A stretch of DNA of 64,000 bases from Rhodothermales bacterium (GCA_017643395.1 JAEPNP010000003.1:1-64000); one strand, 5' to 3'. Numbered from the stretch's first letter, positions 13,975 through 62,850 are shown. Numbers and translations are program-made. Notes: a model not told the origin generated them from the sequence alone.

Positions 13975-16900
13975 ATGCCTTACGGGAAAACCCAGAAGAT
14001 CAAGAAGAACTTCAGCTCGCTGACGGTCAGCCTGGCCAGCCCGGAGACCATTCTCGAGCGCTCCTACGGTGAGGTTCTCAAGCCGGAAACGATCAACTAC
14101 CGGTCGTTCAAGCCTGAGAAGGAAGGACTCTTCTGCGAAAAGATCTTCGGCCCGGTCAAGGACTGGGAATGTCATTGTGGCAAGTACAAGCGTATTCGCT
14201 ACAAGGGCATCATCTGTGACCGATGTGGCGTCGAGGTGACGCAGAAGTCGGTCCGCCGCGAGCGTATGGGTCACATCACGCTCTCGGTGCCCGTCGTCCA
14301 CATCTGGTACTTCAAGACGCTTCCGAACAAGATCGGGCACCTCCTGGGTATCCGTTCCAAGGATCTGGAGCGCATCATCTACTACGAGAACTACGTGGTA
14401 GTGCAGCCGGGTTGCGCCGCAAGCCTGGGTGTCGAGGAGAAGCAGCTGCTCTCCGAGGATGAGTATTTCAACATCCTCTACCAGATCCGCGAGGACAACA
14501 ACCGCCTCGAGGACGACGATCCGGAGAAGTTCATCGCAATGATCGGTGGCGAGGCCATCGAAGTGATGCTTCGTCGCATCGACCTGCCCATGACGGCGCA
14601 GGAGCTGCGTTTCCAGATCAAGACCGAGACCAGCCAGCAGCGCAAGGCAGAAGCCCTGAAGCGCCTGTCCGTGGTCGAGTCGTTCCGCGACGCCAACCGG
14701 CGCATGGAAAACCGTCCCGAGTGGATGGTCATGCGCGTGATTCCGGTCATCCCGCCGGAGCTCCGCCCGCTGGTGCCGCTGGAAGGTGGTCGTTTTGCGA
14801 CTTCCGACCTCAACGACCTCTACCGCCGCGTCATCATCCGCAACAACCGCCTCAAGCGCCTGATCGACATCAAGGCACCGGAGGTCATTCTGCGGAACGA
14901 GAAGCGCATGCTGCAGGAGGCGGTCGACAGCCTCTTCGACAACTCGCGTAAGGCCAACGCCGTCCGGAGCGACTCGAACCGTGCCCTGAAGTCCCTCTCG
15001 GACATGCTCAAGGGCAAGCAGGGTCGTTTCCGTCAGAACCTGCTCGGAAAGCGCGTCGACTACTCCGGTCGTTCGGTAATTGTGGTCGGCCCCGAGCTGC
15101 AGCTGCACCAGTGCGGTCTTCCCAAGGAGATGGCGGTCGAGCTGTTCAAGCCGTTCATCATCCGCAAGCTCATCGAGCGCGGCATCGTCAAGACGGTCAA
15201 GAGCGCCAAGAAGGTGGTCGACCGCAGGACGGCGGACGTGTGGGACATCCTGGAGAAGGTCATCAAGGGCCGGCCGGTGATGCTCAACCGCGCGCCGACG
15301 CTGCACCGTCTGGGTATCCAGGCGTTCCAGCCCGTGCTGATTGAAGGCAAAGCCATTCGTCTGCACCCGCTCGTCTGTACGGCGTTCAACGCCGACTTCG
15401 ACGGTGACCAGATGGCGGTGCACGTTCCGTTGTCGCTGGACGCGGCCATGGAGGCCATGCTGCTCATGCTCTCCAGCCACAACATCCTCAGCCCGGCGCA
15501 CGGCGGCCCGGTGACAGTGCCGACCCAGGACATGGTTCTTGGTCTGTACTACATCACCAAGGCCCGCAACGGCATGAAGGGCGAGGGCATGCAGTTCTCG
15601 AGCACGGTCGAGGCGCGTCAGGCGTACGACCAGGGCATCGTCGAACTGCACGCCAAAATCGAGGTCCGCGTGGACGGTCGCCGTCAGCAGACCACGATGG
15701 GCCGTGTGCTCTTCAACGAGATCGTGCCTGACGGCGTCGGCTACATCAACGAGGTTCTCACCAAGAAGAACCTGCGCGGCATCATCTCCCGCGTGCTGAA
15801 AGCCTCCGGATTCCCGAAGACGGCGCGCTTCCTGGACGAGCTGAAGATGCTCGGCTTCGAGCGTGCCACCGAGGGTGGACTGACCTTCTCTCTTTCCGAT
15901 ATCGTGATTCCCGACAAGCGTCAGGAGCTCATCGATCAGGCCGAGGGCGAAGTCGAGAAGGCCCGCGCCAACTACGGCATGGGCTTCATCACGGAGAACG
16001 AGCGCTACAACCAGGTCATCGACATCTGGACGCACACCAACAACCAGGTGTCCGAAGAGCTCTTCAACACGCTGAAGGAAGACCGCGAAGGATTCAACGC
16101 CATCTACATGATGGCCGACTCCGGCGCTCGAGGCTCGAAGGAGCAGATCCGGCAGCTCGGTGGCATGCGTGGCCTGATGGCCAAGCCGCAGAAGAGCCTC
16201 GTCGGTTCGGCCGGCGAGATCATCGAGAACCCGATTATCTCCAACTTCAAGGAGGGGCTGACGGTGCTCGAGTACTTCATCTCGACGCACGGTGCTCGTA
16301 AGGGTCTCGCCGATACGGCTCTCAAAACGGCCGACGCCGGTTACCTCACGCGTCGCCTTGTGGACGTGGCCCAGGACGGCACGGTGACGCAGCACGACTG
16401 TGGCACGCTCCGTGGCATCCGGATCTCGGCCCTCAAGGACAACGAGGATATCGTCGAGCCGCTCGCAGACCGCATCCTTGGTCGCGTTTCGGTGCACGAC
16501 GTGGAGGATCCGCTCAACGGAGACCTCATCGTCGGCGCCAACGAGCTGATCGACGAAGAGAAAGCCCGCCAGATCTCGGAGACCTCCATTGAGGAAGTCG
16601 AGATTCGTTCGGTGCTCACGTGTGAATCCCGGCGCGGCGTGTGTGCGCTCTGCTACGGTCGTAACCTTGCCACCGGCCGCCTGGTCGAGGTGGGTGAGTC
16701 GGTCGGCGTCGTGGCCGCCCAGTCCATCGGTGAGCCGGGTACGCAGCTTACGCTCCGGACCTTCCACATCGGTGGTACGGCCAGCCGCATCTCGGCTGAG
16801 AGCACCATCCAGACCAAGTTCGCCGGTAAGGTCGAGCACGTGAACCTCCGGACCGTCTCCTTCGACGACGGCGAAGAGGAGAAAGAGGTGACCCTGTCCC

Positions 16901-45200: not shown

Positions 45201-45783
45201 TGGCACGCGAATCCCAAAGCAGCCTGAACTTGAAGATGGCATTGATGTGCGATGGGGTGTTCCGCGGCTCAACCGCGCGAGTGTTGACCCCCTTGACGTT
45301 GAACGTGGGGTCAGGAACCACCTGCACACTGTCCGCGCTTGCCCCTGGCTCTACACCGAGGAACATCGAGTGGAACACGCCCTGGCTCGAGATCGCCTCA
45401 TTGTTGTCCTTTCCGAGCGGGAAGTTGTACGCCTGAAGCGTGTAGTTGGGACCTCCGAACGAGAACGTGCGGTCCGGGTGGTCTTTGCCCGCCGGACTCA
45501 TCTGGTTCTTGATGCGGTTGTCCACACCCGCGTTGAAGTGACAGGACGCGCAGGTCTGCACTCCATCGGCACCCAGCTGCATGTCCCAGAACAGGGACTT
45601 GCCGAGTTGAACCGCGGCATCGCGATCCTTGATGAAGTCGTCCAGGTTCTCTGGCAGCGGGACCTCTACGCCTTTGAGGGTCTCCAACTGGCCGGAACGG
45701 ACGCTGAGCTTCCAGCCCACGGTGACCACAACCAGGGTCAGCGCTAGCAGATTGAAATAGCGTGCTCGAAGGGGGCTCTTCAT
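42229..45783 (-). CDS. Di-heme cytochrome c peroxidase/MauG domain fused to DUF11, beta-propeller and T9SS sorting tail
   Basis: 1184 aa from the ATG at 45783. The N-terminal hydrophobic segment (residues 9-26) is a signal or anchor. The peroxidase part (about 40-580) has two c-type heme sites: CASCH at 78-82 and CIDCH at 382-386. A DUF11-like Ig domain (TVGDAVLIEIQVTNSGPG) follows near 640. A sortilin/BNR-type propeller with RSTDGGRTWKG and RSLDAGESWHLAG repeats follows that. The protein ends in a T9SS tail with QNYPNPFNP and LPSGTYLYRLE. Likely secreted to the cell surface by the type IX system. The fusion of heme peroxidase to propeller is unusual; the substrate is unknown. Confidence 0.88.
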   Translation of the reverse strand: MKSPLRARYFNLLALTLVVVTVGWKLSVRSGQLETLKGVEVPLPENLDDFIKDRDAAVQLGKSLFWDMQLGADGVQTCASCHFNAGVDNRIKNQMSPAGKDHPDRTFSFGGPNYTLQAYNFPLGKDNNEAISSQGVFHSMFLGVEPGASADSVQVVPDPTFNVKGVNTRAVEPRNTPSHINAIFKFRLLWDSRANNQFNGRNPFGPRDPDARVWVHNGHTVAEERILIDDAAMASVATGPPVDFLEVGSVGRTWPFIGKRLLPAKPLAGQEVDPGDSHLKNIRDHYGKGLKGTYADMVKRAFRSKFWSDKPVAWRIDGKNETQEFTQIEDNFSFFAGLSIMMYVSTQVSDESRFDDYLRGQHYALTEKEKAGLELFMNKGRCIDCHAGPDLTNAGVDLHEFSEQNALTNTFRRKDGKVALFDRGSFNIGVRKFDDDLGQGRTDDFGNDLTFTEQHLENNRLDPHFQDPTTWDVQSGTRPKPAIEGAFKTPGLRNVALTAPYMHNGGLATLRQVVDFFDRGGDFAEENKDFLHPSIQDLYLSEHEKEALVAFMLTLTDERVRLHKAPFDHPQIFVPNGHTGDEKHVIDDGTGQAVTDLLEVPAVGAFGYRSLPHILRPFEENLGLTHFDAGPAGDQADLAIFKHFKDTAGATVGDAVLIEIQVTNSGPGNAPSVIVEDDLPPSLSFGDGTEVLSHGTLHESDGMVVWDIGELWPGEMAMLSFRATVEYPYYGLIENTATVRHNSTVNDPFQSNNSDTASFEALVPQQFPAKVQIQAGTFWRDPAGNVHPVVGTYNRGVYRGIPPGQTSVQLWVEANEGLPNPVIVNDAITTENNDVYIATWGYEGIYRSTDGGRTWKGMIFEDETGLSSGNLIVYAIEEGPNGTLYASADRGRIFRSLDAGESWHLAGELPGASSDVTWSLAAHPTTPGTVFAGTFGNGVYATDNFGLTWSRLEGRGLGDDGRVQVFDIEFDPATPHKPTLWAATARGVYRSMDLGGHWQELNGGLFPFREARSLAFHPDEEGPLFVAVWGGGIYKLTNRKHNTVWEFVDLDGANVTTVFYEPYHGTLAAGTDVAGLTTMSVGAFSTDVDDAPTSELPVTMVLAQNYPNPFNPTTAITFDLPEASPVRLSVFDLLGREVRVLADGPMAAGRHEVRFEAGDLPSGTYLYRLETSVGSVSRAMSLLK

Positions 45784-45883
45784 GCCAACTGTGCTCGGAT
45801 TCAGGTATTCCGAGTCGGCGGACGCAAAGAGGAGGCCCATTCAGGGCGCACGATGCAAACGGCCCGAAATCGCCGGTTTCGCC

Positions 45884-45910
45884 ATCCACTCGTCCCGATA
45901 CGAGATGGAT
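45884..45910. promoter_or_regulatory. Inverted repeat in divergent promoter region
   Basis: ATCCACTCGT (45884-45893) and ACGAGATGGAT (45900-45910) form a dyad with one bulged base, inside the 220-base gap between two divergent genes. It may be a shared operator. No other clear promoter element was assigned. Confidence 0.35.
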
Positions 45911-46003
45911 TTGCGAGGCCGCGTATCCATTTCGAGACTGACGGCGAGATTCCGGCGCGGGAGCGCATCGCCCGTATTTTGCGCCGCGCACACCCCAGCA
46001 CCG

Positions 46004-49000
46004 ATGCCCGAAGCCCAGCTCCCGGAGGTCCGAGAAAGACCCCCGTTTTCCGCCGAAACGGCCAAGCATGTAGCCCGGGAATTCTGGGGACTCGACGGGC
46101 GCGTCAGCCCACTGCCGGGGGATCGGGATCGCAACTTCCGGCTCTCGACCCCAGAGGGAGACTACGTGGTCAAGGTGGTCTTCCGGGGCGACCCACCCGG
46201 CCTTGCAAAGCTGCAGCAGGATGCGCTGGAGCGCGCCTCCGCCCTGGACCTGGCGGTGCCGCGAACGGTGCGATCACGCGCAGGCAAGCGCATCGAGAAG
46301 GTGGAAGGACCTGACGGCAACGCGTACCAGGTGCTGGTGAACACGTGGGTGCCGGGAATCCCGTTTGCAGAGTTCAGGCCGAAGACTACGGACTTGCTGG
46401 AGCGGATCGGGCGCGGGCTGGGCCAGCTCGACACCGTGCTGGCAGGACTGAGCCACGACGAGCTCGACCGCGCATTCGAGTGGGATGTCGCGCATGTGGC
46501 CTCCATCGTAGAGTCGCGTCTGTCCTTCATTGCCGACGAGTACGACCGGGCCCTGGTCTCTCGGCACCTGGACGCCATCACCGCCCGGTCGGTTCTCCTC
46601 GATTCACTTCCACGACAGCCCATCTACAATGACGCGAACGAGCACAACGTGCTGGTTGCGCCTGGCGACGATGCGCTTGAAGAGGGTCCTCCGGGCCTGG
46701 GGCTCATCGATTTCGGGGACATGGTGCGGACCTGGCGAGCCGCGGAGTTGGGCGTCGCTTCCGCCTATCTGACCATGGACTTTGCGGACCCCATTGCCGG
46801 CATGGCCGCTCTCGCGGCAGGATACCATCGCGCTTATCCGCTCCAGGAGCGCGAGTTGGAGGCCGTTCCCTACCTCACGGCAGCACGCCTCTGCATCAGT
46901 GTGTGTCACAGTGCGGAGCGGTCACGGTCGGAGCCTGACGATCCGTATCAGACCATCTCCCAGTCCGGCGCATGGAGTCTGCTTCGACACCTCGGAAACG
47001 GGCATCCGCGACTGATGACCTACCGGATACGTGCTGCCTGCGGGCTGGAGCCGTGCCCGGCCTCACCTGTGATACGCGCCTGGATCGAGAGCAATCCGGC
47101 GGCCCCTGTGATAGAAACCCCGCTCGACGGCCCGGTCTTCGATCTCAGCGTCGGCACCGACGAGTTTGACGGCACGCTGGACCCACTGGATGCCGCCGTG
47201 TGGGATGCGCCGTTCGCGCGCCGGCTGGCCGATACGGGCGCGAAGGTGGGCTTCGGTCGCTATCTCGAGCCCCGCATTTGTTATCGAGGCGATCAGTTCA
47301 AGTGGGGAGGAAGTGGTCCGGAGCGGCAGCGCACAATCCACCTCGGCGTGGACCTCTTCGCCCCTGCAGGTACGGGCGTAAGCACGCCGTATGACGCGGT
47401 GGTCGAGCACGTCGTGCACAATGACCAACCGCTGGACTACGGGCCCACCGTGATTCTGCGGCATGAAGCCGGCGATACGCCGTTCTACACACTCTTTGGT
47501 CACCTGGGCATGGGGGTGCTGGACACCCTGAAGGCCGGGGACCGCCTGAAGGCGGGGCAGCGTTTTGCGGATCTGGGTGATTCGAACGTCAACGGTGGTT
47601 GGTCTCCGCACCTGCACTTCCAACTCTACGCCGACAATCTCGACAACCTGGGCAACATGCCTGGCGTCGCGTTTGCCTCCCAGGCGCGCACATGGGAATC
47701 GATCTCGCCGGACCCGAACCTGGTCTTGCGCACGGTCCTGCCGCTGCGGCACGAGCAGCCCCCGGATCTCGGCGCCCGGCGCGCCGCCCACCTGGGGCCC
47801 AGTCTGAGTCTGTCCTATCGCCGCCCTCTGCACATCGTGCGCGGAATCGGCGCGCACCTTTTTGACGCCCAGGGTGGTGCTTACCTGGATTGCGTCAACA
47901 ACGTGTGTCACCTGGGGCATGCGCACCCGGCCGTTGTTCGTGCCGCATCACGGCAGCTCTCGGTTCTGAACACCAACACCCGCTATCTGCACCAGAACAT
48001 TCTGGACTACGCGGAGGCGCTGGCAGACACACTGCCGGGAGACCTGGAGGTGTGCTTCCTGGTCAATAGCGGTTCCGAGGCCAACGATCTCGCCCTCCGT
48101 ATGGCGCGAACCGCTACAGGTGGCACCGGCACGCTGGTGCTGGATGGAGGCTACCACGGCAACCTGACCTCGCTTGTTGCCATCAGTCCCTACAAGTTTG
48201 ACGGCCCGGGCGGTAGCGGCGCCGGAGACCGGGTAGCGGTCCTGGAGATGCCGGATCCCTATCGGAATCCCGGATTGGATGCGTCCCGTGGTGCGCACGA
48301 TGCGCGGCGTGCCGCAACGGCCCTCGCTGCTCGTGGCCATGCGCCTGCCGCGCTGATTGCAGAGAGTATTCTGAGCTGCGGGGGCCAGATCGAGCCGCCC
48401 GAAGGGTACCTGCAGGCCGTCTACGCGGAAGCTCGACAAGCCGGCGCGGTATGCATTGCCGATGAGGTTCAGACCGGGTTTGGCCGGGTTGGCGACGCCA
48501 TGTGGGCCTTCGAGCTGCAGGGCGTCGCGCCGGATATCGTGACCCTGGGCAAGCCGATCGGTAACGGATTTCCGCTTGGTGCTGTTGTGACTACCCGCAG
48601 AATCGCGCAGGCGTTTGCCAACGGCATGGAGTATTTCAACACGTTCGGAGGGAACCCGGTCTCCAGTGCGGTGGGCCTGGCCGTGCTGAGGGTCATCCTG
48701 GAAGAGAACTTGCAAACCCATGCGCAGGAGGTCGGCAGCCATCTGAAAGCGGGCCTGGAAGCCCTCAAGGCGCAGCACGCCCTGATCGGGGATGTGAGGG
48801 GTCGTGGTCTGTTCCTGGGGTTCGAGCTTGTGCGGGACCGGACCACGCTTGAACCTGCCGACCGGGAGGCCACATGGTTGGCGAACCGCATGCGGGACCT
48901 GGGCGTGCTTATCTCAACCGACGGCCCCCTGCACAACGTCATCAAATTGAAGCCACCGCTGGCATTCTCTCGCGATGACGCGGACGAACTCCTGGAAAAA

Positions 49001-49042
49001 CTCGATGTGGTCCTTCGTGATACGTGTTTGCAGCCTGTGTAG
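46004..49042 (+). CDS. Triple fusion: APH-type kinase, M23 peptidase-like domain, class III aminotransferase/phospho-lyase
   Basis: 1012 aa from the ATG at 46004. Residues 1-350 are an aminoglycoside-phosphotransferase/hydroxylysine-kinase-like domain with YNDANEHNVLV (usual H of HxD replaced by N) and LIDFGD. Residues ~400-570 are an M23 LytM-type domain with intact zinc ligands H446-x3-D450 and H536-x-H538. Residues ~590-1012 are a PLP aminotransferase of the AGXT2L type with NSGSEANDLA, ADEVQTGFGR and PLP lysine K850 (TLGKPIGNG). The kinase plus phospho-lyase pairing suggests phosphorylation then elimination of an amino alcohol such as hydroxylysine or ethanolamine. This is inferred from eukaryotic relatives. 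No signal peptide is visible. Confidence 0.9.
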   Translation: MPEAQLPEVRERPPFSAETAKHVAREFWGLDGRVSPLPGDRDRNFRLSTPEGDYVVKVVFRGDPPGLAKLQQDALERASALDLAVPRTVRSRAGKRIEKVEGPDGNAYQVLVNTWVPGIPFAEFRPKTTDLLERIGRGLGQLDTVLAGLSHDELDRAFEWDVAHVASIVESRLSFIADEYDRALVSRHLDAITARSVLLDSLPRQPIYNDANEHNVLVAPGDDALEEGPPGLGLIDFGDMVRTWRAAELGVASAYLTMDFADPIAGMAALAAGYHRAYPLQERELEAVPYLTAARLCISVCHSAERSRSEPDDPYQTISQSGAWSLLRHLGNGHPRLMTYRIRAACGLEPCPASPVIRAWIESNPAAPVIETPLDGPVFDLSVGTDEFDGTLDPLDAAVWDAPFARRLADTGAKVGFGRYLEPRICYRGDQFKWGGSGPERQRTIHLGVDLFAPAGTGVSTPYDAVVEHVVHNDQPLDYGPTVILRHEAGDTPFYTLFGHLGMGVLDTLKAGDRLKAGQRFADLGDSNVNGGWSPHLHFQLYADNLDNLGNMPGVAFASQARTWESISPDPNLVLRTVLPLRHEQPPDLGARRAAHLGPSLSLSYRRPLHIVRGIGAHLFDAQGGAYLDCVNNVCHLGHAHPAVVRAASRQLSVLNTNTRYLHQNILDYAEALADTLPGDLEVCFLVNSGSEANDLALRMARTATGGTGTLVLDGGYHGNLTSLVAISPYKFDGPGGSGAGDRVAVLEMPDPYRNPGLDASRGAHDARRAATALAARGHAPAALIAESILSCGGQIEPPEGYLQAVYAEARQAGAVCIADEVQTGFGRVGDAMWAFELQGVAPDIVTLGKPIGNGFPLGAVVTTRRIAQAFANGMEYFNTFGGNPVSSAVGLAVLRVILEENLQTHAQEVGSHLKAGLEALKAQHALIGDVRGRGLFLGFELVRDRTTLEPADREATWLANRMRDLGVLISTDGPLHNVIKLKPPLAFSRDDADELLEKLDVVLRDTCLQPV

Positions 49043-53348: not shown

Positions 53349-54446
53349 CTAAGCGGGGACCGGTCCCCCCACAACGTCTGAGTCGCCTTTCAGCAGCCTC
53401 AGCAAATCTTCGGGGCCGCGGCAGAGGGCGTCTGCGCCGATGCGCCTCCAGGCATGGGGTGACTGCTCGAAAGCTCCGCCTCCCACCACGACCGGACAGC
53501 CTTCAAGTTTGGAGTCGGCCCGGATTCGGGCGATGACTTCGGAGGCCGGCCGCATGTTGATGGGCAGTGTCACTGAGAGCCCCACGAGCACCGGTCTTTC
53601 GTATGCCATGGTGCCGGTGATGACATCATGGGGGTTATTGCCTCCAAGATTCCGTACGCGCCATCCGTCGGTCTTGAGCACATCGGCCAGGACAGAAAGT
53701 CCGATGTCGTGCAACTCGCGATCAACACCTGACAGCACTACGGTGCCCCTGGCGGCGGGAGCCTCCGGCTGCATGTGCTGGCGACAATAGGCGAACACGG
53801 CCGGCAGGATGGCCGTGGCGGTATGCTCCTCCTGCCACGTGATCTGGTTATCCTGCCACAATCTGCCTACGCTGTACATCACAGGCTGGACCAGGCCGAG
53901 GTAGAGTTCTCGAATGTCGGCACCCGCCTCATGGGCCCTGCGCACGACATCGACGGCTCCCGCGTGGTCGCCCCTAACCAGCCTGTCGAGTAGCAGCTTG
54001 CTTCGCTCCTGCATCTCCTCGGACTGCGAAAGCCACGTCTTTGGAAGGTCCGGTTTGAACAGGTCCGTCTCGGGGAGTCCTGCCAGCCTGCGAGTCTCTG
54101 CCGCCACCTGGGCCGGTGTCTCGGACTCCTCTACCAGGTCGGCCAGCACCTGGAAGTGGGCGCGCAGGCAGCGGTGTGACAGCCCCCTGGCGACCAGTAC
54201 CCGGCCCACCCACCGAGCATACTCGACAAACGCGGTATCGTCCTGCGCCTCTATCGCCAGGTCGAAATGCTCCAGGTGCCGTGCTCCGTGTTCGGGCAAT
54301 GCGCCTCGCAGCGGCGCATCGGAGCTCAGCTCCTCCGGAAAGCGCTGCATGAGAATACCGGCGGCCCTGACGACGGTCTGCTCGACGTCTGCAAGGTCGA
54401 TGCGTGTCAGCCGCACGCGTCTGGGGAGTGCTTCCTGAAGAGTCAC
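53349..54446 (-). CDS. Cobalamin-binding protein with W-x9-EH motif (putative light sensor lacking a DNA-binding domain)
   Basis: 365 aa. Residues 15-125 are an all-helical N-terminal domain, possibly RsbR-N-like (uncertain). Residues 140-230 are the methionine-synthase-type helical cap with W197-x9-E207-H208, the signature of CarH/LitR-type B12 photosensors. Residues 233-355 are the B12-binding Rossmann fold, with E244-L-H246-D-I-G249 (first Asp of DxHxxG replaced by Glu), SVTLP and VVGGGAF. It has no MerR-type HTH. A role in light- or B12-dependent signalling through a partner is inferred. No partner is evident next door. Confidence 0.85.
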   Translation of the reverse strand: MTLQEALPRRVRLTRIDLADVEQTVVRAAGILMQRFPEELSSDAPLRGALPEHGARHLEHFDLAIEAQDDTAFVEYARWVGRVLVARGLSHRCLRAHFQVLADLVEESETPAQVAAETRRLAGLPETDLFKPDLPKTWLSQSEEMQERSKLLLDRLVRGDHAGAVDVVRRAHEAGADIRELYLGLVQPVMYSVGRLWQDNQITWQEEHTATAILPAVFAYCRQHMQPEAPAARGTVVLSGVDRELHDIGLSVLADVLKTDGWRVRNLGGNNPHDVITGTMAYERPVLVGLSVTLPINMRPASEVIARIRADSKLEGCPVVVGGGAFEQSPHAWRRIGADALCRGPEDLLRLLKGDSDVVGGPVPA

Positions 54447-54495: not shown

Positions 54496-56046
54496 TCAGT
54501 CCAGCGGACGCACGTTGTAGCCTTCGTGCTGCAGCATGCGCACCTCGGAGCTGACCCTGCGTTCGAAGTCCGGCCAGGCTCGCTGCTGAGCCGGAGTCCA
54601 GAGCACCTCGGACATGGCCAGCATGCGCGGCAGGATCATGTACTCCAGTTTCTCGGGTGAACTGATGTACTCCGTCCAGACGTTGCCCTGCCCGCCCAGA
54701 ATGCGCCCCGCTTCGGCGCTCGTCAGTTCCTCAGGCACTGGCTCGAAGCTATAGACCGTCTCCAGGTCGAGTCCGTGACCGGGCCAGTCCGCGGCGATGG
54801 GCTCTGACCCCGGGTCGCCCTGGTACAGGTCGAAATAGGTGTGACTGACCGGGGTCATGATCACGTCGTGTCCCTGCCGGGCCGCCTCGATGCCGCCCAC
54901 CGTGCCCCGCCAGGACATGACCACGGCACCGGGTGCCAGGCCGCCCTCGCGAATCTCGTCCCAGCCGATCATGCGCCGTCCAAGTCCGGCCACGATCTCC
55001 TGGACCCGCTTCATGAACCAGCTCTGGAGCGCCACCTCATCCGCCAGCCCCTCTTGCTCCATGATCTCCTGGGCCACCGGGTTGGAGGCCCATTGTGCCT
55101 TGGGCACCTCATCGCCGCCTACGTGAATGAACCGGGACGGAAACAGTCCGGCCACCTCGCCCAGCACCGTCTCGATGAACCGGAAGGTTTCCGGGTGCGG
55201 GCAGAACACGTCCTCGTGCACCCCCCAGACCGTGGAAACCTCGTAGGGTCCGCCGGTGCATCCAAGCTCCGGGTAGGCGGCCAGCGCCGCCCGGGCATGT
55301 CCGGGCATCTCGATTTCGGGGATGACCTCGATCCCCAGCCCGCCGGCGTACTCGACGATGTCCCGAACCTCTTCCTGCGTGTAGAAGCCACCGTGGGGAA
55401 TGCCGTCTCCCACAAACGGGTTGAAGTTCTTTTCCAGGATGGTCTCGGCCCGCCTGCTCCCGATCTCGGTCAGCAGCGGGTAGGCCTTAATCTCAATGCG
55501 CCAGCCCTGGTCATCCGTCAGGTGCCAGTGAAACCGGTTCATGCGATATCGCGCCATGAGGTCCAGAAACCGCTTCACGACGTCAGGCTCAAAGAAGTGT
55601 CGGCTGACGTCGAGGTGCATCCCGCGATAGGAGAATCGAGGGCGATCATCGATCAGCACACCCGGCAGGCGGGCATCCTCGCGAACCATGCGCGCAAGCG
55701 CCAGCGCTCCGTGGCGGAATCCGGCGGGGTCGGACGCTCTCAAGAACACGCCTTCCCGCCCGACGCGAAGCTGAAAGGACTCCGACGCCAGTCCCGGGGC
55801 CGATTCCAGGGACAGAGTGCCCGAACCGTCGGGCACGAGACGTGCCTGCAACAGATCCGCCACGTCCTGGGCCGGCGCGAGCCCATCGCCCGAAACCGAT
55901 GGGTTATCAGGCCAACTGAATCCCCGGCCGGTCCATTCCACGGATGCCGGGTACGGAATCAGCGGCAGACGGTCCGATGGAGCGGGCATGCAGGACGCGG
56001 CCAGCAGGAGAAGGGGGGCAAGTCGTCGAATCGGCGGCCAGGGCAC
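54496..56046 (-). CDS. Beta-N-acetylhexosaminidase, GH20 family, lipoprotein
   Basis: 516 aa with a GTG start and lipobox LAAS-C19. An N-terminal GH20b domain (25-135) is followed by the catalytic barrel: RFSYRGMHLDVSRHF, NRFHWHLTDDQGWRIEI, IPEIEMPGHARAALAAYPEL and HVGGDEVPK with the catalytic D312-E313 pair, then GNVWTEYI near the end. It removes terminal GlcNAc or GalNAc from chitin or glycan oligomers by substrate assistance. Exported and membrane-anchored. Only 40 bases separate its start from the divergent gene start at 56087. Confidence 0.93.
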   Translation of the reverse strand: MPWPPIRRLAPLLLLAASCMPAPSDRLPLIPYPASVEWTGRGFSWPDNPSVSGDGLAPAQDVADLLQARLVPDGSGTLSLESAPGLASESFQLRVGREGVFLRASDPAGFRHGALALARMVREDARLPGVLIDDRPRFSYRGMHLDVSRHFFEPDVVKRFLDLMARYRMNRFHWHLTDDQGWRIEIKAYPLLTEIGSRRAETILEKNFNPFVGDGIPHGGFYTQEEVRDIVEYAGGLGIEVIPEIEMPGHARAALAAYPELGCTGGPYEVSTVWGVHEDVFCPHPETFRFIETVLGEVAGLFPSRFIHVGGDEVPKAQWASNPVAQEIMEQEGLADEVALQSWFMKRVQEIVAGLGRRMIGWDEIREGGLAPGAVVMSWRGTVGGIEAARQGHDVIMTPVSHTYFDLYQGDPGSEPIAADWPGHGLDLETVYSFEPVPEELTSAEAGRILGGQGNVWTEYISSPEKLEYMILPRMLAMSEVLWTPAQQRAWPDFERRVSSEVRMLQHEGYNVRPLD

Positions 56047-56086: not shown

Positions 56087-57412
56087 ATGCAGCACTCCGA
56101 CTACACGGAGCGGGTGGTCAACCTGCTCGACCCTTCCGCCAATATTTTTCTTTCGGGCGATGAGGCCCAGGCCCTGTCCGCCATGGAGGCGGGCGATGCC
56201 GAGGCCCTGGGTGCCGTCAGCGGGCAGTTCGCTCTGCTGCAGCGTTCGGGCAAGACGGTGCGCCTGGCGCGGTCCATCGGCCGGCCCATGCGGTACTTCC
56301 TGGCCAAGCGCGCCGAGGGGCCCTGCCTGATCGTAGCCGAGCGCATGGACGAGATTCGTCACCAGCTTGCGCTGGAGGGCCTTGAGGACCAGTTCCATCC
56401 GTCGTACACCCGCATGGTGCCCGCCCATTTCATGCTGGAGCTGGAGCTGATTGGGTGCCCCGATCCGAACCCGGAGTACCACCGGTTCTTTGATCCGCCC
56501 CGCGAACAATGGGCTCCAGACATCGACGAAATCGGGCGTCAATACATCGGCGCACTGGCCCGCGTATGTGACGCCTGGCTGGACACCATTTCGGAGAAGG
56601 CGCCCATCGGGGTGCTGTTTTCCGGTGGCATCGACAGCGGCGCGGTGTTTCTCACCTTGCGTCACCTGCTGCTGGCGCGCGGCCAGGCGCCGCAGCGATT
56701 GAAGGCATTTACCCTGCGCGTGGGAGGCGGTCAGGATGCCGAGCAGGCACACGCGTTCATGCAGGCCCTCGGACACACCATGTATCTGGAGGTCGTCGAT
56801 GTCGCGATGGAGGACTTCGACTACCGCGCTGCCGTGCGGGTTACCGAGGATTACAAGCCGCTCGATGTGCAAAGTGCTACTGCGGCCCTGGCGCTCTGCC
56901 GGGAAATTCGGAACCGCTATCCCGACTGGGTCTGGCTGGCTGATGGCGACGGCGGCGACGAGAACCTGAAGGACTACCCCATCGAAGAGAATCCGGAGCT
57001 GACCATTCGCAGCGTGCTGAACAACCAGATGCTATACCAGGAGGGTTGGGGGGTGCATGCCATCAAGCACTCGCTGACCTATTCAGGTGGGCAGAGCCGG
57101 GGTCACGTGCGGTCCTATGCGCCCGCACGCGCGCTCGGATTCAAGGGATTCAGTCCATTTGCGATACCCGAGGTGATCGAGGTCGCCGAGGGCATCCCGT
57201 TCATCGAACTCACGGACTGGGATCACGAGGCGCTCTACGCGCTCAAGGGGCAGGTCGTCGCGGCCGGCATTGAGGCGCTGACCGGCGAGAAGATGCCGGT
57301 TTTTGAGAAGCGCCGTTTCCAGCGGGGCGTGGTCGACGACGGGGAGTTCGACCAGGCTTTTCCGGATTCGGAGCTCGCCTACCGGCGCGTGTTCGACACG
57401 CTGTTCGCTTGA
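56087..57412 (+). CDS. Asparagine-synthetase-like ATP-pyrophosphatase (lacking a catalytic N-terminal Cys)
   Basis: 441 aa. The N-terminal ~140 residues resemble a degenerate Ntn glutaminase domain (GDAEALGAVSGQFALLQRSGKT) but start MQH, without the nucleophilic Cys2. Glutamine-derived ammonia is therefore unlikely and another amine donor is expected. The C-terminal synthetase domain has the PP-loop SGGIDS (179-184) and ADGDGGDENLKDYP (285 on). Beta-lactam synthetase and related amide-forming enzymes share this layout. It is followed by a radical SAM gene overlapping as TTGA. Its substrate is unknown. Confidence 0.85.
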   Translation: MQHSDYTERVVNLLDPSANIFLSGDEAQALSAMEAGDAEALGAVSGQFALLQRSGKTVRLARSIGRPMRYFLAKRAEGPCLIVAERMDEIRHQLALEGLEDQFHPSYTRMVPAHFMLELELIGCPDPNPEYHRFFDPPREQWAPDIDEIGRQYIGALARVCDAWLDTISEKAPIGVLFSGGIDSGAVFLTLRHLLLARGQAPQRLKAFTLRVGGGQDAEQAHAFMQALGHTMYLEVVDVAMEDFDYRAAVRVTEDYKPLDVQSATAALALCREIRNRYPDWVWLADGDGGDENLKDYPIEENPELTIRSVLNNQMLYQEGWGVHAIKHSLTYSGGQSRGHVRSYAPARALGFKGFSPFAIPEVIEVAEGIPFIELTDWDHEALYALKGQVVAAGIEALTGEKMPVFEKRRFQRGVVDDGEFDQAFPDSELAYRRVFDTLFA

Positions 57413-58347
57413 GCCTGGTCCTGGACGACGCGGCCATTCTCGCGGCCAGGGGCCCGCGGGCCAAGCTGGACCCGGAGCGGCCGTATGCCGTGCACAGCGA
57501 GTCTGAAACGCTCGCTGACGGCACCCGCGCGCAGGTTCTGACGGTCTTCCTCACCAATCGCGAATGTCCCTTCCGATGCTTGATGTGCGACCTCTGGACG
57601 CACACCCTGACGCACACGCCCGCACCGGGTCAGGTGGTTCGGCAGATTGAATGGGCGATGGGCCAGGCCCCCGGATTCGACCACATCAAGCTGTACAACG
57701 CCGGCAGCTTCTTCGACCGCAAGGCCTTTCCTCCGGAGGATCTGCCGGAGGTGGCACAGGTGCTCGGACGGACCCGCCGCGTCATCGTGGAGAACCACCC
57801 GGCTCTGTGCGGAGACGCGGTGTTCGAGTTCGCCGCTCGCATCCACGGCAGGCTGGAGGTCGCGCTGGGCCTCGAGACGGCCCATCCCGGGGTGCTGGAG
57901 CGCCTGAACAAGCGCATGACAGTCGCCGACTTTGAGCACGCCGCCAGGCGTCTGCGACGGGGCGGCGTCGACGTTCGCACCTTCGTGCTCGTGCGGCCCC
58001 CGTTCATGAATGAGGACGAGGGCATCCACTGGGCGGTGGAGAGTGCACGTGTGGCCTGGCAGGCAGGTGCCCAGGTCGTCACGCTCATCCCGACGCGGGC
58101 CGGCAACGGCATCATGGACCAGTTGCAGCGCAACGGGCACTTCACGCCGCCGACGGTGAAGGCGCTCGAGTCGGCCGTCGAGCAGACCCTTGCGCAGACG
58201 CCTCCGGGCGTGCGCGTGTTCGGAGATCTATGGGACGTTGATCGCCTGGAAGGGTGTGCCCGATGTGCGCAGAATCGGCAGGCGCGCATCGCTCGAATGA
58301 ACCGGGATCAGCGCGTGCCGACGCCGGTCCTGTGTGATGCCTGTTGA
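57409..58347 (+). CDS. Radical SAM enzyme
   Basis: 312 aa, TTG start overlapping the previous stop. C53-x3-C57-x2-C60 (CPFRCLMC) holds the SAM-binding 4Fe-4S cluster. The partial TIM barrel follows with KLYNAGSFFD, VIVENHPAL, LEVALGLETAHP (GGE-like strand) and VRTFVLVRPPF. The C-terminus has a CxxC (283, 286) and a second CxxC (309, 312), likely a zinc site or auxiliary cluster. The layout recalls the Elp3/RaSEA-type group, but the reaction is unknown. It is translationally coupled on both sides. Confidence 0.87.
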   Translation: MSLVLDDAAILAARGPRAKLDPERPYAVHSESETLADGTRAQVLTVFLTNRECPFRCLMCDLWTHTLTHTPAPGQVVRQIEWAMGQAPGFDHIKLYNAGSFFDRKAFPPEDLPEVAQVLGRTRRVIVENHPALCGDAVFEFAARIHGRLEVALGLETAHPGVLERLNKRMTVADFEHAARRLRRGGVDVRTFVLVRPPFMNEDEGIHWAVESARVAWQAGAQVVTLIPTRAGNGIMDQLQRNGHFTPPTVKALESAVEQTLAQTPPGVRVFGDLWDVDRLEGCARCAQNRQARIARMNRDQRVPTPVLCDAC

Positions 58348-59702
58348 CGGTGCGCGCTGACCTGCTGATCGTCGGAGGCGGATTCGCGGGATCGGCCATG
58401 GCCATGGTTGCGGCGCGACTGGGCCTGGATGTGGTGTTGATCGACCGCGGCAGGCACCCGAGGTTTGCCGTCGGTGAGTCCACCACCCCGGCCGGCAACA
58501 TGGCCCTGGCCGCGATGGGCCGCCGGTACGGCATCCCGCTGTTCACGGCGATGTCGCGCTACGGCACCTGGAAGGAGCAGCTTCCGGAGGTCGACGTCGG
58601 GCGCAAGCGGGGTTTCGCGTACTGGTTCCACGGTTCAGCGCACCCGGAGCTGCGGGTAGCGGCGTCTGCGGACGATTTCCACTGCGACACGCACTGGCTC
58701 CGCTCAGAGGTAGATGCCAGACTGTTTGAAGAGGCCCGGGCGATGGGTGTCGAGGCGTGGCAGGAGACGGAAATCGTTGGCCTGCATCGAGCGAAACGTT
58801 GGAAGGCGCGGCTCTCTTGCGGGCGCCTGGTCCAGGCGCGGGTACTCGTCGACGCTACCGGGTCGGCTGAGTTTGCCGCGCGCTTCCTGGATGCCGGGCG
58901 CGGTCCCGACATGCGCATCAGGACGTACGCGGCGTTTTCGCACATGCGTGGTCTGCCTCCGTGGGGCGAGTTCATGGACCTGGACGACGATCCGTTTCCG
59001 GCCCATGAGTCAGCGCAGCACCACGTCACAACGGGGGGTTGGATGTGGCAGCTTGGCTTCGATTCCGGCGTCACAAGCGTCGGAATCGTGGGGCCATCAC
59101 CTCCGGACCTTTCGCACTTCCTGAGTGGAGCGCCTTCTCTGGCTCAGCAGGTGGAGGCCGCCTCCGAAACGCGGCCGTGGGCTTCGACGCCGCGGCTTCA
59201 GCGTCGGGTAGTGTGCGCGGGAGGACCAGACTGGTTGCTGCTGCCGGCGTCGGCCGGGTTCGTGGATCCGCTGCATTCGACGGGTATCGCACACGGTCTG
59301 TCGGCCGTGGAGCGCGCTGCTGCCGTGCTCGCCGGGGGCGACAGCGATTTCACCGCGCTTGGCGCGCACATCCTGGGCGAACTGGATCACCTGGATCATC
59401 TCACGGCGGCTTGCTACGCGACGCTGGGCCGGCCGGCTGATTTTGTGGCGGCCACCATGCTCTACTTCGCGGCAAGCATCCGGTATGAGCAGGACCGCAT
59501 CGCCCGTGGAAACTCCACCCCCGGGTTTCTCGGCGCCGACGACTCGGCGCTTCGCTCGGTCGTCAAACAGGCGCCGGACCGGGCCACAACAGCCGGCTTT
59601 GCCGATTGGGTGCGCGAGGCGATTGCGCCCTGGAATGCCATCGGGCTGATGGACCCGAAGTTCGCGCACCGGTATGCCCACACGGCGCCGCGTGGTTGGT
59701 GA
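58344..59702 (+). CDS. FAD-dependent halogenase-like monooxygenase
   Basis: 452 aa with a TTG start overlapping the radical SAM stop. It has a FAD-binding LLIVGGGFAGSAMAM at residue 7, GESTTPAGN (44 on) and VDPLHSTGIAHGL (308 on), all as in tryptophan-halogenase-family flavoproteins. GWMWQLGF (232 on) matches the halogenase GWxWxIP motif except that I-P is replaced by L-G. A lysine at 77 (TWKEQL) is placed like the catalytic Lys. It may halogenate, hydroxylate or only oxidise its substrate. No flavin reductase gene is adjacent. It ends the three-gene unit. Confidence 0.85.
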   Translation: MTVRADLLIVGGGFAGSAMAMVAARLGLDVVLIDRGRHPRFAVGESTTPAGNMALAAMGRRYGIPLFTAMSRYGTWKEQLPEVDVGRKRGFAYWFHGSAHPELRVAASADDFHCDTHWLRSEVDARLFEEARAMGVEAWQETEIVGLHRAKRWKARLSCGRLVQARVLVDATGSAEFAARFLDAGRGPDMRIRTYAAFSHMRGLPPWGEFMDLDDDPFPAHESAQHHVTTGGWMWQLGFDSGVTSVGIVGPSPPDLSHFLSGAPSLAQQVEAASETRPWASTPRLQRRVVCAGGPDWLLLPASAGFVDPLHSTGIAHGLSAVERAAAVLAGGDSDFTALGAHILGELDHLDHLTAACYATLGRPADFVAATMLYFAASIRYEQDRIARGNSTPGFLGADDSALRSVVKQAPDRATTAGFADWVREAIAPWNAIGLMDPKFAHRYAHTAPRGW

Positions 59703-59717: not shown

Positions 59718-62285
59718 CTAACGGACCCGTGTCACAGAAGTCGTGGACCGGCGCCCGTCCGGCCCGGTCACCGCGATCACATAGGTCCCCGACGGAGCCG
59801 ATTCGCCGGAGCGCAGCCCACCATCCCATCGCACAATGGCGCCCGATGCTGTAGGCAGCACCTCTGGAAGCGCCACCACGCGACCAAGCATGTCGTAGAC
59901 CACCGCCCCGGAAGCCCGGCCCGTCACGTCGATGCGCGTCGCGTTCGAGAAAGGATTCGGGAAGGCCGGCTCGGCCATGAAACGCGGCACCTCGGGCAGG
60001 GACTCCGTGGCCACCGGGTCGCCGAGTTGGGTGAGATCCAGGGTGTACATGCCCCTTCCATGCGTACCCGCAATCAGGCGACGCCCGGGGCCGTCCGCCT
60101 TGAGATCCGTGATGGTGACGGCCGGCAGATCGCCGTCGAGCGGGCTCCAGGAGCGCCCATCGTCCGCGCTGTAGAACATGCCGATATCGGTGCCCACGAA
60201 GACGCGGTCGGTGAAAACCGGATCCACAGCGATCGCATTCACGGGGGCGTCGGGCAGGCCGACTGAAATGTCCTCCCAATCCGTGCCGAGGTTGCGGGTC
60301 CGGAAGACGTGAGGCGTGGGATCGCGCCACTTGAGGCCGGAGTACGTCACATACGCGGTGGCCACATCGTCCGGAGCCGGATACACCCGCGTGACCCAGC
60401 GATAAGGCAGGCCCTCGGACACACGATTCCAGTTTGTGCCGTAGTCCCAGGTCACCCAGACGTTACCGTCGTCGGTGCCTGCCCAAATGACCCGGCTGTC
60501 GAGCGGTGAGACGGCAATCGTCGTCACCGTGCCGAGCTTGGCCACCTCCGTGCCGTTGGTCAGGTCGGGGCTCACGGCCTGCCAGTCTGTCGAGACCGCG
60601 TCCTCGGTGCGCCAGATCCGGTACGTGCCGTAGTACAGGATCTCGGAGTCGAACGGATCCATGGCGAGCGGCGTGCCGAAGTTGCGCCTCTCTTCGGAAG
60701 GAATGCCTGTGCCCACGGCGATGGGAAACGGGAACGGGTTGTTGCCGAACAGACCGTCTACACGGACCATGTTTCCGTTCTGTGACTCCGCGTAGATGCG
60801 GGTCGCGTCGTCAGGAATGGGAAGCACGTAGAATCCGTCGCCTCCGAAGGCCTGGCGCCAGTCATTCGTGGCTCCGGTGCGGGTCCAGACCGTGCCGTTG
60901 TCCTGGGTGCCGCCGAACAGCCGTTCGGGGCGTACCGGGTCGAAGGCAATCTCGTAGAACTGCGTAATTGGCAGTGGGCTCAGTCGCTCCCAGGAGCCAC
61001 CCCGGTCGATGGAAATGGCGACGCCCCCATCGTTCCCTTCAAAGACCGCGTTCGGATTGACCGGGTGGAAGGTCATGGCATGATGGTCCACGTGGGTGCC
61101 CGATCGGCGCGTCCAGGTCACGCCCCCGTCTTCAGATCGGAAGATGGAAGCATCCAGCACCCAGACCCGAGCGGGATCCTCTGGATCGACGCGGACCTGG
61201 CCGAAAAACCACGAGAATCTGTAATCGCTTGGCCCCAGGTTGTCCAGGATATTCCCGTTGTCTGCCACCGACCAGGAGTCGCCTCCGTCCGTCGAGACGT
61301 ACAGCCCCAGGTAGCCGCTTCCGCTCGTGTAGTACGCGTACATCACGTCGGGGAAGGAGGGGGAGATGGTCAGGCCGATGCGGCCGATGCGCACCCGGTC
61401 GTTGTCGTCGATGTGATCGTCGGGATCGGGAAGGCCTCGGTCCGGGCCGAGCGGTTCCCAGTTGAGGCCGCCGTCCGTCGAGCGCCAGACACCGCTGGAT
61501 CGCCCGTAGAGGTAGGAGCCTGTGACCCGGCGAACGCGTTGCCAGCTGGTAGCGAACAGCACATCAGGATTGTCCGGGCGCATCACGAGGTCCACGACTC
61601 CGGTGGAATCGTTGACGAACAGCGGCTTGCTCCACGTGGCACCGCCGTCCTCGGTCAGATAGACTCCCCGGTGTTCGTCCGGAGAAAAGTAACTACCTGT
61701 TCCGGCCACCCAGACCCGGTTGAAGTCCTCGGGGTGCACGATCACCCTTCCGATGCTCACCGTTTCGGCAAGGCCTGTATACGACCAGCTTTCGCCGCCG
61801 TCGGTGGACCGAAAAAGGCCACCACCGGCGTAATTGTTGTGTCCGCCGTTGGCTTCACCCGTGCCGACATACATGATCGCCGGGTCGCTGGGAGCGATTG
61901 CGATGTCGCCGATGCTCAGGAATGGCTGGTCGTCAAGGATCGGAGTCCAGCTCGCCCCGAGATCGTCCGACCTGAACACGCCGCCGGTTGCCGCGCCGGC
62001 GAACAGCCGGTTGGGGTTCTCTGGGTGGATTTCCAGGTCGGAGATGCGGCCTCCTACGTTGCCGGGACCCGCGAACTCCCAGACGGCCTCGGCCGCATGT
62101 TTGGATGCGGCCGGCATGGCCCGCTTGGCGGCCAGGGCGTCCTGATACGCAAGCGGGTCCGCCTCAAAGTGAGGAAATGTGCGCTGCAACCAGGCCCGCT
62201 CGTCCGGCACCCTCTCCGGTGGCGGCTCGGGGTGCCCGCAGGCGGCGAGCGTAACGAGGAGTGGGAGGGCTAGAAACGGGCGCAT
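59718..62285 (-). CDS. Sortilin/BNR-type beta-propeller lipoprotein with T9SS-like C-terminal domain
   Basis: 855 aa from the ATG at 62285, with lipobox VTLAA-C16. About ten blades have the F/Y-RSTDGGESW signature (FRSDDLGASW, FRSTDGGESW, YLTEDGGATW, WRSTDGGLNW, YVSTDGGDSW, FRSEDGGVTW). This gives two stacked propellers like VPS10/sortilin or plant photosystem HCF136 relatives. The C-terminus has AFPNPFSNAT and APSGTYVIAV, a sorting or Ig-like tail. A lipobox plus T9SS tail is an unusual pairing. Likely surface-exposed; substrate unknown. Confidence 0.87.
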   Translation of the reverse strand: MRPFLALPLLVTLAACGHPEPPPERVPDERAWLQRTFPHFEADPLAYQDALAAKRAMPAASKHAAEAVWEFAGPGNVGGRISDLEIHPENPNRLFAGAATGGVFRSDDLGASWTPILDDQPFLSIGDIAIAPSDPAIMYVGTGEANGGHNNYAGGGLFRSTDGGESWSYTGLAETVSIGRVIVHPEDFNRVWVAGTGSYFSPDEHRGVYLTEDGGATWSKPLFVNDSTGVVDLVMRPDNPDVLFATSWQRVRRVTGSYLYGRSSGVWRSTDGGLNWEPLGPDRGLPDPDDHIDDNDRVRIGRIGLTISPSFPDVMYAYYTSGSGYLGLYVSTDGGDSWSVADNGNILDNLGPSDYRFSWFFGQVRVDPEDPARVWVLDASIFRSEDGGVTWTRRSGTHVDHHAMTFHPVNPNAVFEGNDGGVAISIDRGGSWERLSPLPITQFYEIAFDPVRPERLFGGTQDNGTVWTRTGATNDWRQAFGGDGFYVLPIPDDATRIYAESQNGNMVRVDGLFGNNPFPFPIAVGTGIPSEERRNFGTPLAMDPFDSEILYYGTYRIWRTEDAVSTDWQAVSPDLTNGTEVAKLGTVTTIAVSPLDSRVIWAGTDDGNVWVTWDYGTNWNRVSEGLPYRWVTRVYPAPDDVATAYVTYSGLKWRDPTPHVFRTRNLGTDWEDISVGLPDAPVNAIAVDPVFTDRVFVGTDIGMFYSADDGRSWSPLDGDLPAVTITDLKADGPGRRLIAGTHGRGMYTLDLTQLGDPVATESLPEVPRFMAEPAFPNPFSNATRIDVTGRASGAVVYDMLGRVVALPEVLPTASGAIVRWDGGLRSGESAPSGTYVIAVTGPDGRRSTTSVTRVR

Positions 62286-62436
62286 GGCGACGGGGCGAAA
62301 GCGAAAGATCGCACCGACGTGCGTCCCGCGCGTTCCCGAGCACGTCACCGGTTTCGATGGGCGGACCGGCCGGTTGCGGATTCCCGCGAACGGGGGGACG
62401 CACCGCGGTCGCGAGGTCCGCCGCTCCGGCCCGGAT

Positions 62437-62850
62437 TCAGCGGACGGTGATCGTGATCTCGTCTTCCATGCCTTCCAGCGCAATGTGCGCACCGTCAGCG
62501 AGCTGCAGGCGCAGCACATGCTCACCCGGAGGCAGGTCGAGCGTAGTGGACGAGGAGCCGTCTCCGTAATGAATGTGCGTGGAGTCCGCAGGAATGACGG
62601 AGCCCGGCGCGAGGAATGGCTCGTTCACCAAAATGTGGAAGTGGCCTGAGTTCTCCGTAAACGTTCCGGCCGGCACCACGTCGATGCCCTCAGCCGCCAT
62701 TTCCACAGAAATGGGTGATTCGAGCTCGGCGCCATCGGCAGGGGAAGCAAAGAACACTCGGGCTGAAGGCTCGGCGGCTTCCGGCTCGGCCTGGGGTTGA
62801 TCAGAGGTGCATGCCGCCACAAGCAGCAGGAGAGGGAGGTACCGGGCCAT
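62437..62850 (-). CDS. DUF4399 lipoprotein
   Basis: 137 aa, lipobox LLVAA-C14, then a short acidic linker and a DUF4399-like beta domain: ARVFFASPADGAELESPISVEM, SGHFHILVN, STHIHYGDGSS and LPPGEHVLRLQLADG. The conserved His-x-His pairs (GHFHI and THIHY) suggest metal binding, but function is unknown for the family. It lies 151 bases upstream of the propeller lipoprotein in the same direction. Confidence 0.85.
   Translation of the reverse strand: MARYLPLLLLVAACTSDQPQAEPEAAEPSARVFFASPADGAELESPISVEMAAEGIDVVPAGTFTENSGHFHILVNEPFLAPGSVIPADSTHIHYGDGSSSTTLDLPPGEHVLRLQLADGAHIALEGMEDEITITVR

Follow-up and report, generated by a model that had tools for sequence, protein, structure and literature searches.

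The 64,000-nucleotide stretch of DNA from a Rhodothermales bacterium analysed here (GCA_017643395.1, JAEPNP010000003.1:1-64000; hereafter the window) contains three consecutive genes, P1, P2 and P3 in 5'-3' order, whose products resemble a ligase, a radical S-adenosylmethionine (SAM) enzyme and a halogenase dependent on flavin adenine dinucleotide (FAD). We refer to these genes as the trio. They and their main motifs lie at the following positions:

56087..57412, + strand: P1, asparagine-synthetase/beta-lactam-synthetase-like ligase, 441 amino acids, ATG start (Pfam Asn_synthase, 2.7e-13; predicted fold)
56621..56638, + strand: P1 PP-loop SGGIDS, the ATP pyrophosphatase motif (86/86 members)
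57409..58347, + strand: P2, RaSEA-like radical SAM enzyme, 312 amino acids, TTG start (TIGR01210, 97 bits; AlphaFold model)
57565..57588, + strand: P2 cluster motif CxxxCxxC, residues C53, C57 and C60 (48/48 members)
58255..58344, + strand: P2 C-terminal tail with two CxxC pairs, C283/C286 and C309/C312 (41/48 members; near-invariant alignment columns)
58344..59702, + strand: P3, FAD-dependent halogenase-like enzyme, 452 amino acids, TTG start or GTG at 58350 (profile matches to PltM, 2.6e-67, and tetracycline 7-halogenase, 5.4e-65)
58605..58607, + strand: P3 K88, equivalent of the PltM catalytic Lys87 (alignment to PltM; motif in 34/34 members)
59037..59060, + strand: P3 GWMWQLGF, an altered GWxWxIP motif (GWxWxIP in 0/34 members)
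59265..59285, + strand: P3 DPLHSTG, halogenase-type Fx.Px.Sx.G / halide-site motif (DPxxSxG in 32/34 members)

The first-pass annotation of this locus had proposed that the three genes act in a common pathway, and had staked that proposal in advance on their being conserved together in relatives. A full-length relative of P1 was found in 15 of 99 other relatives up to the order level, 54-76% identical in alignment, and in all 15 the order P1-P2-P3 is kept wherever the contig permits (14 with P2, 13 with P3). A scan of GTDB contigs yielded at least 565 relatives of P1, and we examined the taxonomy and adjacency of the best 80 of these. They come from Planctomycetota and Bacteroidota (Rhodothermales, Chitinophagaceae and Sphingobacteriaceae), with a few records labelled Acidobacteria; P2 was detected adjoining P1 in 43 of them and P3 in 34, some of the contigs being short. 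We also searched 20 genomes whole, mostly picked because P1 stood apart from the other two genes. P2 was recovered in 19 of the 20 and P3 in the same 19, though the genes are often unlinked (in many Planctomycetota): the trio genes of G109 are on three contigs, and P2 and P3 of G114 are more than 1 Mb apart. Cultivable carriers include Mucilaginibacter segetis and Roseithermus sacchariphilus. Close relatives of carriers can be without the trio, as is G214 in genus g45.

Co-occurrence in broader samples was exact. Among 296 high-quality genomes evenly drawn from the phylum of the window, P1, P2 and P3 were each present in 17, and these were the identical 17 genomes. Similarly, P1 and P2, the two genes scored in a second sample of 244 genomes around a Planctomycetota carrier, were found in the identical 22. 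The probability that two random sets of 17 genomes drawn from 296 are identical is about 1e-27, or 1e-14 when counted by genus; because of phylogeny, the real value is less extreme. Pairwise divergence is also correlated between the three proteins (r 0.85-0.88, Mantel p <= 0.0005), with P1 the most conserved of them (mean distance 0.35 versus 0.52 and 0.61 for the other two). Since the trio is kept or lost together across several phyla even when its genes are unlinked, its members very probably serve one shared compound or modification. The common pathway is thus borne out by identical presence in two phylum-level samples, by kept order and by correlated divergence, and the broader suggestion of a compact, uncharacterised system is strengthened by the same conservation and co-occurrence.

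Some genomes show additional features around these genes. In the planctomycete genome G103 (locus L076), an additional P1 of greater divergence (666 bits) lies at C1:7155722-7157038, far from the trio. In G052, a 69-residue fragment matching P1 residues 31-99 precedes the complete P1 (L034:7829-8035), apparently a partial duplication. Genus g53 has a Wzi-like gene for capsule assembly, read from the opposite strand, between P1 and P2 (L186:8712-10217, L187:9662-11119 and L188:9523-11016).

Both junctions of the trio, P1/P2 and P2/P3, read as TTGA overlaps, which the first-pass annotation had reported together with TTG starts for the two downstream genes. The coordinates, both junctions and the TTG start of P2, for which there is no plausible alternative, all stand. 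The start of P3, and with it the second overlap, is less certain, because a GTG 6 bases downstream of the TTG (58350) is an equally good start and the L025 relative begins at the matching residue. Coupling recurs among relatives; in L033, L035 and L037, for example, both junctions are ATGA. The fixed stoichiometry that had been deduced from the overlaps does not follow, as 4-base overlaps are the most frequent gene spacing within operons. The upstream neighbour, at 54496-56046, encodes a family 20 glycosyl hydrolase and points away from the trio; it adjoins the trio in both other species of the genus to which the window belongs, but not in the broader set of relatives. Downstream, a BNR/sortilin-type protein gene (59718-62525) points towards it.

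P1 belongs to the asparagine synthetase/beta-lactam synthetase superfamily by its PP-loop, kept as SGGxDS in 86/86 members, and by its predicted synthetase fold. Its AlphaFold model (predicted local distance difference test score, pLDDT, 84) matches beta-lactam synthetase (BLS) with Z 25.6 over 379 residues (root-mean-square deviation 3.9), and asparagine synthetases match about equally well (Z 24.5-24.9); the fold is shared over about 370-390 residues at 16-18% identity. Against the asparagine synthetase B model TIGR01536, P1 scores 40.9 bits, where the cut-off is 267.1. A sequence search of solved structures gave no close relative of P1 or P2. As noted at first pass, the catalytic Cys of the glutaminase is absent: none of the 86 members begins with Met-Cys. 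The structural alignment starts only at residue 37-42 of the AsnB/BLS relatives, so the glutaminase part of P1 is a shortened relic without the Cys. By sequence, P1 is an ATP-using, carboxylate-activating ligase unable to produce its own ammonia from glutamine. An unusual amine is a plausible co-substrate, with free ammonia or ring closure equally open.

P2 is assigned to the radical SAM superfamily by the CxxxCxxC motif in all 48 members and by a TIM-type barrel in its model (pLDDT 95.8). The two additional C-terminal Cys pairs described at first pass proved to be a feature of the family, present in 41 of the 48. The fold search returned queuine lyase, HydE, biotin synthase, Elp3 and other radical SAM folds; as many of them lie within 2 Z units, it does not discriminate. 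By sequence, the best named family is the archaeosine enzyme RaSEA (TIGR01210), although P2 scores 97.4 bits against a cut-off of 212.15; with the MnmL/YtqA model TIGR01212 it scores 25.1 bits against a cut-off of 180.

This affinity raises the possibility of an RNA modification, in which a tRNA nucleoside would be the substrate: P1 would couple its carboxylate with an amine or amino acid, P2 would trim the adduct by a RaSEA-like radical cleavage, and P3 would oxidise the nucleoside. RaSEA was the best match in 40/40 P2 members tested, with MnmL, a tRNA enzyme, second in 15. RaSEA itself works in a complex with ArcS, a nitrogen-transferring partner that couples a lysine on through its nitrogen before the radical enzyme converts the adduct (PMC11298593). 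A single-copy system with no need of linkage would also suit this proposal, and the whole-genome searches gave one trio copy per genome, with unlinked genes tolerated. We nevertheless consider an RNA substrate unlikely. P2 falls short of both the RaSEA and the MnmL cut-offs, P1 is similar to small-molecule and peptide ligases and to no known RNA enzyme, and P3 groups with halogenases of free small molecules. Presence is also patchy within genus g22, where G069 is the sole carrier. Moreover, RaSEA-like enzymes occur in small-molecule clusters too. On the Streptomyces plasmids pFRL3 (L184:8716-9831) and pFRL5 (L185:8716-9831), a radical SAM gene of the RaSEA-like kind, with 32% identity to P2 over 59%, leads a conserved run encoding a P450, serine hydroxymethyltransferase, a glycosyltransferase of family 9, a carbamoyltransferase and an rfaE2-like protein; the run is apparently a small-molecule cluster whose RaSEA-like enzyme is more distant than the P2 members.

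The closest profile relatives of P3 are PltM (231 bits) and the tetracycline 7-halogenase CtcP (223 bits), homologous over about 400 residues. Other halogenases match at 4e-34 and weaker, and a peptidyl tryptophan dihydroxylase at 6.5e-10. The catalytic lysine motif typical of flavin-dependent halogenases is found in every one of the 34 members; in PltM, Lys87 is essential, and the K87A mutant is inactive (PMC6424973). The Fx.Px.Sx.G-type motif is present as FVDPLHSTG in P3, and as DPxxSxG in all but two members. With both motifs conserved, P3 likely acts as a halogenase, judging from its sequence. The altered IP of GWxWxIP, already reported at first pass, extends to the whole clade: no member retains the motif, and the recognisable versions read W-x-W-x-L-[RHG]-F. 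This clade-wide loss might have converted an ancestral halogenase to hydroxylation, so that P3 would be a flavin monooxygenase, a variant that could be combined with any of the readings discussed here. Given the retention of the lysine and DPxxSxG motifs, we regard it as doubtful.

The surroundings of the trio offered no constant additional partner. An all-against-all comparison of neighbourhoods, looking for a universal fourth gene, gave only abundant families (DUF1501, PSCyt2 and UnbV_ASPIC) and locally syntenic genes. In Planctomycetota the trio is often near genes for DUF1501 and PSCyt2, families common in that phylum, and in Bacteroidota its surroundings often include FG-GAP/UnbV_ASPIC genes and sometimes one for a transporter of the major facilitator superfamily. 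In agreement with the first-pass annotation, no recurrent carrier protein or nonribosomal peptide synthetase was found beside the trio in this comparison, and no conserved short open reading frame, such as a precursor peptide would require, adjoins it in four groups examined at the locus, a result compatible with a precursor gene at a distance. The trio had no PADLOC match to a defence system, P1 and P2 had no relatives in viral contigs, and P1 was not found on plasmids.

The FG-GAP/UnbV_ASPIC genes deserve separate consideration, because they adjoin the trio in several arrangements (L101:4371-7943; L193:3965-7504 and 14363-16171; L189:12826-16197; L191:3577-6951; L096:12728-16255). In the phylum sample, at least five UnbV_ASPIC proteins are encoded in 17/17 trio genomes versus 33/279 others (Fisher 5e-15, uncorrected for phylogeny and genome size), and in genus g22 the sole trio carrier is also the sole member with more than one such protein. 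The trio might therefore modify these secreted proteins during their maturation, or supply their organic cofactor; the distant relatives of P3 indeed include the peptide-modifying flavin enzymes QhpG, LodB and GoxB. However, P3 is far nearer to PltM than to QhpG (231 versus 42 bits), and many genomes with at least 10 UnbV_ASPIC proteins lack the trio. The family occurs in 140/296 genomes, so it is enriched but not diagnostic as a partner, and without correction for phylogeny and genome size the association is only suggestive. We consider a role in the maturation of these proteins quite improbable.

Three other genes were observed in these neighbourhoods. A fused AMP-ligase/carrier protein/aminotransferase-fold protein is divergent from P1 and adjoins it in seven Pirellulales-type loci (L077:4242-7670, L054, L065, L080, L083, L086 and L117). 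In the window, an open reading frame of 1086 amino acids at 45782-49042 seems, by eye, to join a phosphotransferase, M23-type peptidase and class III aminotransferase in a single protein, and a gene on the minus strand at 53349-54446 resembles those for B12-binding corrinoid proteins; no methyltransferase gene was noticed adjoining the latter.

Taking these observations together, we tentatively favour, as a proposal close to evenly balanced, that the trio is a compact pathway that uses primary metabolites to build a small, conserved molecule, with neither a carrier protein nor a locally encoded precursor peptide. P1 would adenylate a carboxylate with ATP and couple it to an external or intramolecular amine, giving an amide or, as in beta-lactam synthetase, a lactam. 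The 5'-deoxyadenosyl radical of P2 would then cleave or rearrange this product and, by analogy with ArcS and RaSEA, may leave the transferred nitrogen behind. Finally P3, with FADH2, O2 and probably a halide, would follow PltM and CtcP in acting on the molecule in its free state, halogenating (or else hydroxylating) an aromatic or phenolic portion. The family relationships, catalytic motifs, conserved order and obligate co-occurrence are read from sequence; the small-molecule nature of the product, the order of the steps, the identity of the amine and halogenation itself are what we infer from them. We prefer a small molecule because P3 groups with halogenases of free phenolic and polyketide substrates, because no carrier or precursor was found beside the trio, because a more distant RaSEA-like enzyme lies in the apparent Streptomyces plasmid cluster, and because presence is patchy.

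Several points weigh against this preference. The best-characterised relatives of P2 work on tRNA. Dispersed single-copy genes and a highly conserved P1 are atypical of secondary metabolism and would fit a housekeeping modification equally. The GWxWxIP signature is broken in every P3 member examined, and P3 may therefore be an oxygenase.

The component families are known, while the combination of the three and their obligate co-occurrence appear to be undescribed, as far as could be searched: the literature search returned no description of the combination, which is weak evidence, since subscription literature lay mostly outside it. None of the proteins scores above the curated threshold of a named function. 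P1 and P2 miss the asparagine synthetase and RaSEA cut-offs, and P3, though plainly a relative of PltM and CtcP, fails the GWxWxIP signature. The identical distribution of the genes over hundreds of genomes, even where they are unlinked, points to a single conserved function, as yet without a name. It is possible, if on the whole improbable, that the trio represents a previously undescribed type of pathway, in which a glutamine-independent nitrogen transfer, by ligation and then radical cleavage, is combined with flavin halogenation to give a conserved halogenated metabolite or cofactor of Planctomycetota, Bacteroidota and others; the logic of ArcS and RaSEA would here be applied either to a small molecule or to a macromolecule of a new kind, and the product may be used by UnbV_ASPIC proteins. 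If a halogenated metabolite or cofactor is indeed what the trio makes, the compound would be widespread and could escape cluster-based mining, given that its genes are few in number, carrier-free and often dispersed. A macromolecular modification would instead constitute a new pairing of radical SAM with flavin chemistry.

Each protein has a recognisable counterpart in known systems. P3 is homologous to PltM and CtcP and shares their catalytic Lys and DPxxSxG motif, but its GWxWxIP motif is broken clade-wide and the trio setting has no polyketide genes. P1 has the fold and the PP-loop of BLS and AsnB, and a shortened, Cys-free glutaminase part as in the non-amidating members, whereas it scores below the AsnB cut-off, begins about 40 residues later and lies outside any beta-lactam cluster. 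Its superfamily is also employed outside asparagine synthesis by enzymes in pathways of ribosomally synthesized and post-translationally modified peptides, such as the lasso cyclases and PesC. The latter, a nitrile synthetase, takes glutamine or ammonia and has a precursor peptide as its substrate (PMC13060819), in contrast to P1, which lacks the glutaminase Cys and beside which no precursor gene was found. The system of RaSEA, whose substrate is preQ0-Lys tRNA, and ArcS differs from the trio in that P2 is bacterial and scores below half of the RaSEA cut-off, that its partner is AsnS-like instead of ArcS (no search aimed at ArcS was made), and that the trio always has a third, flavin enzyme. 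Still, RaSEA is the nearest named family to P2, and both systems have a nitrogen-coupling enzyme in obligate partnership with a radical SAM enzyme.

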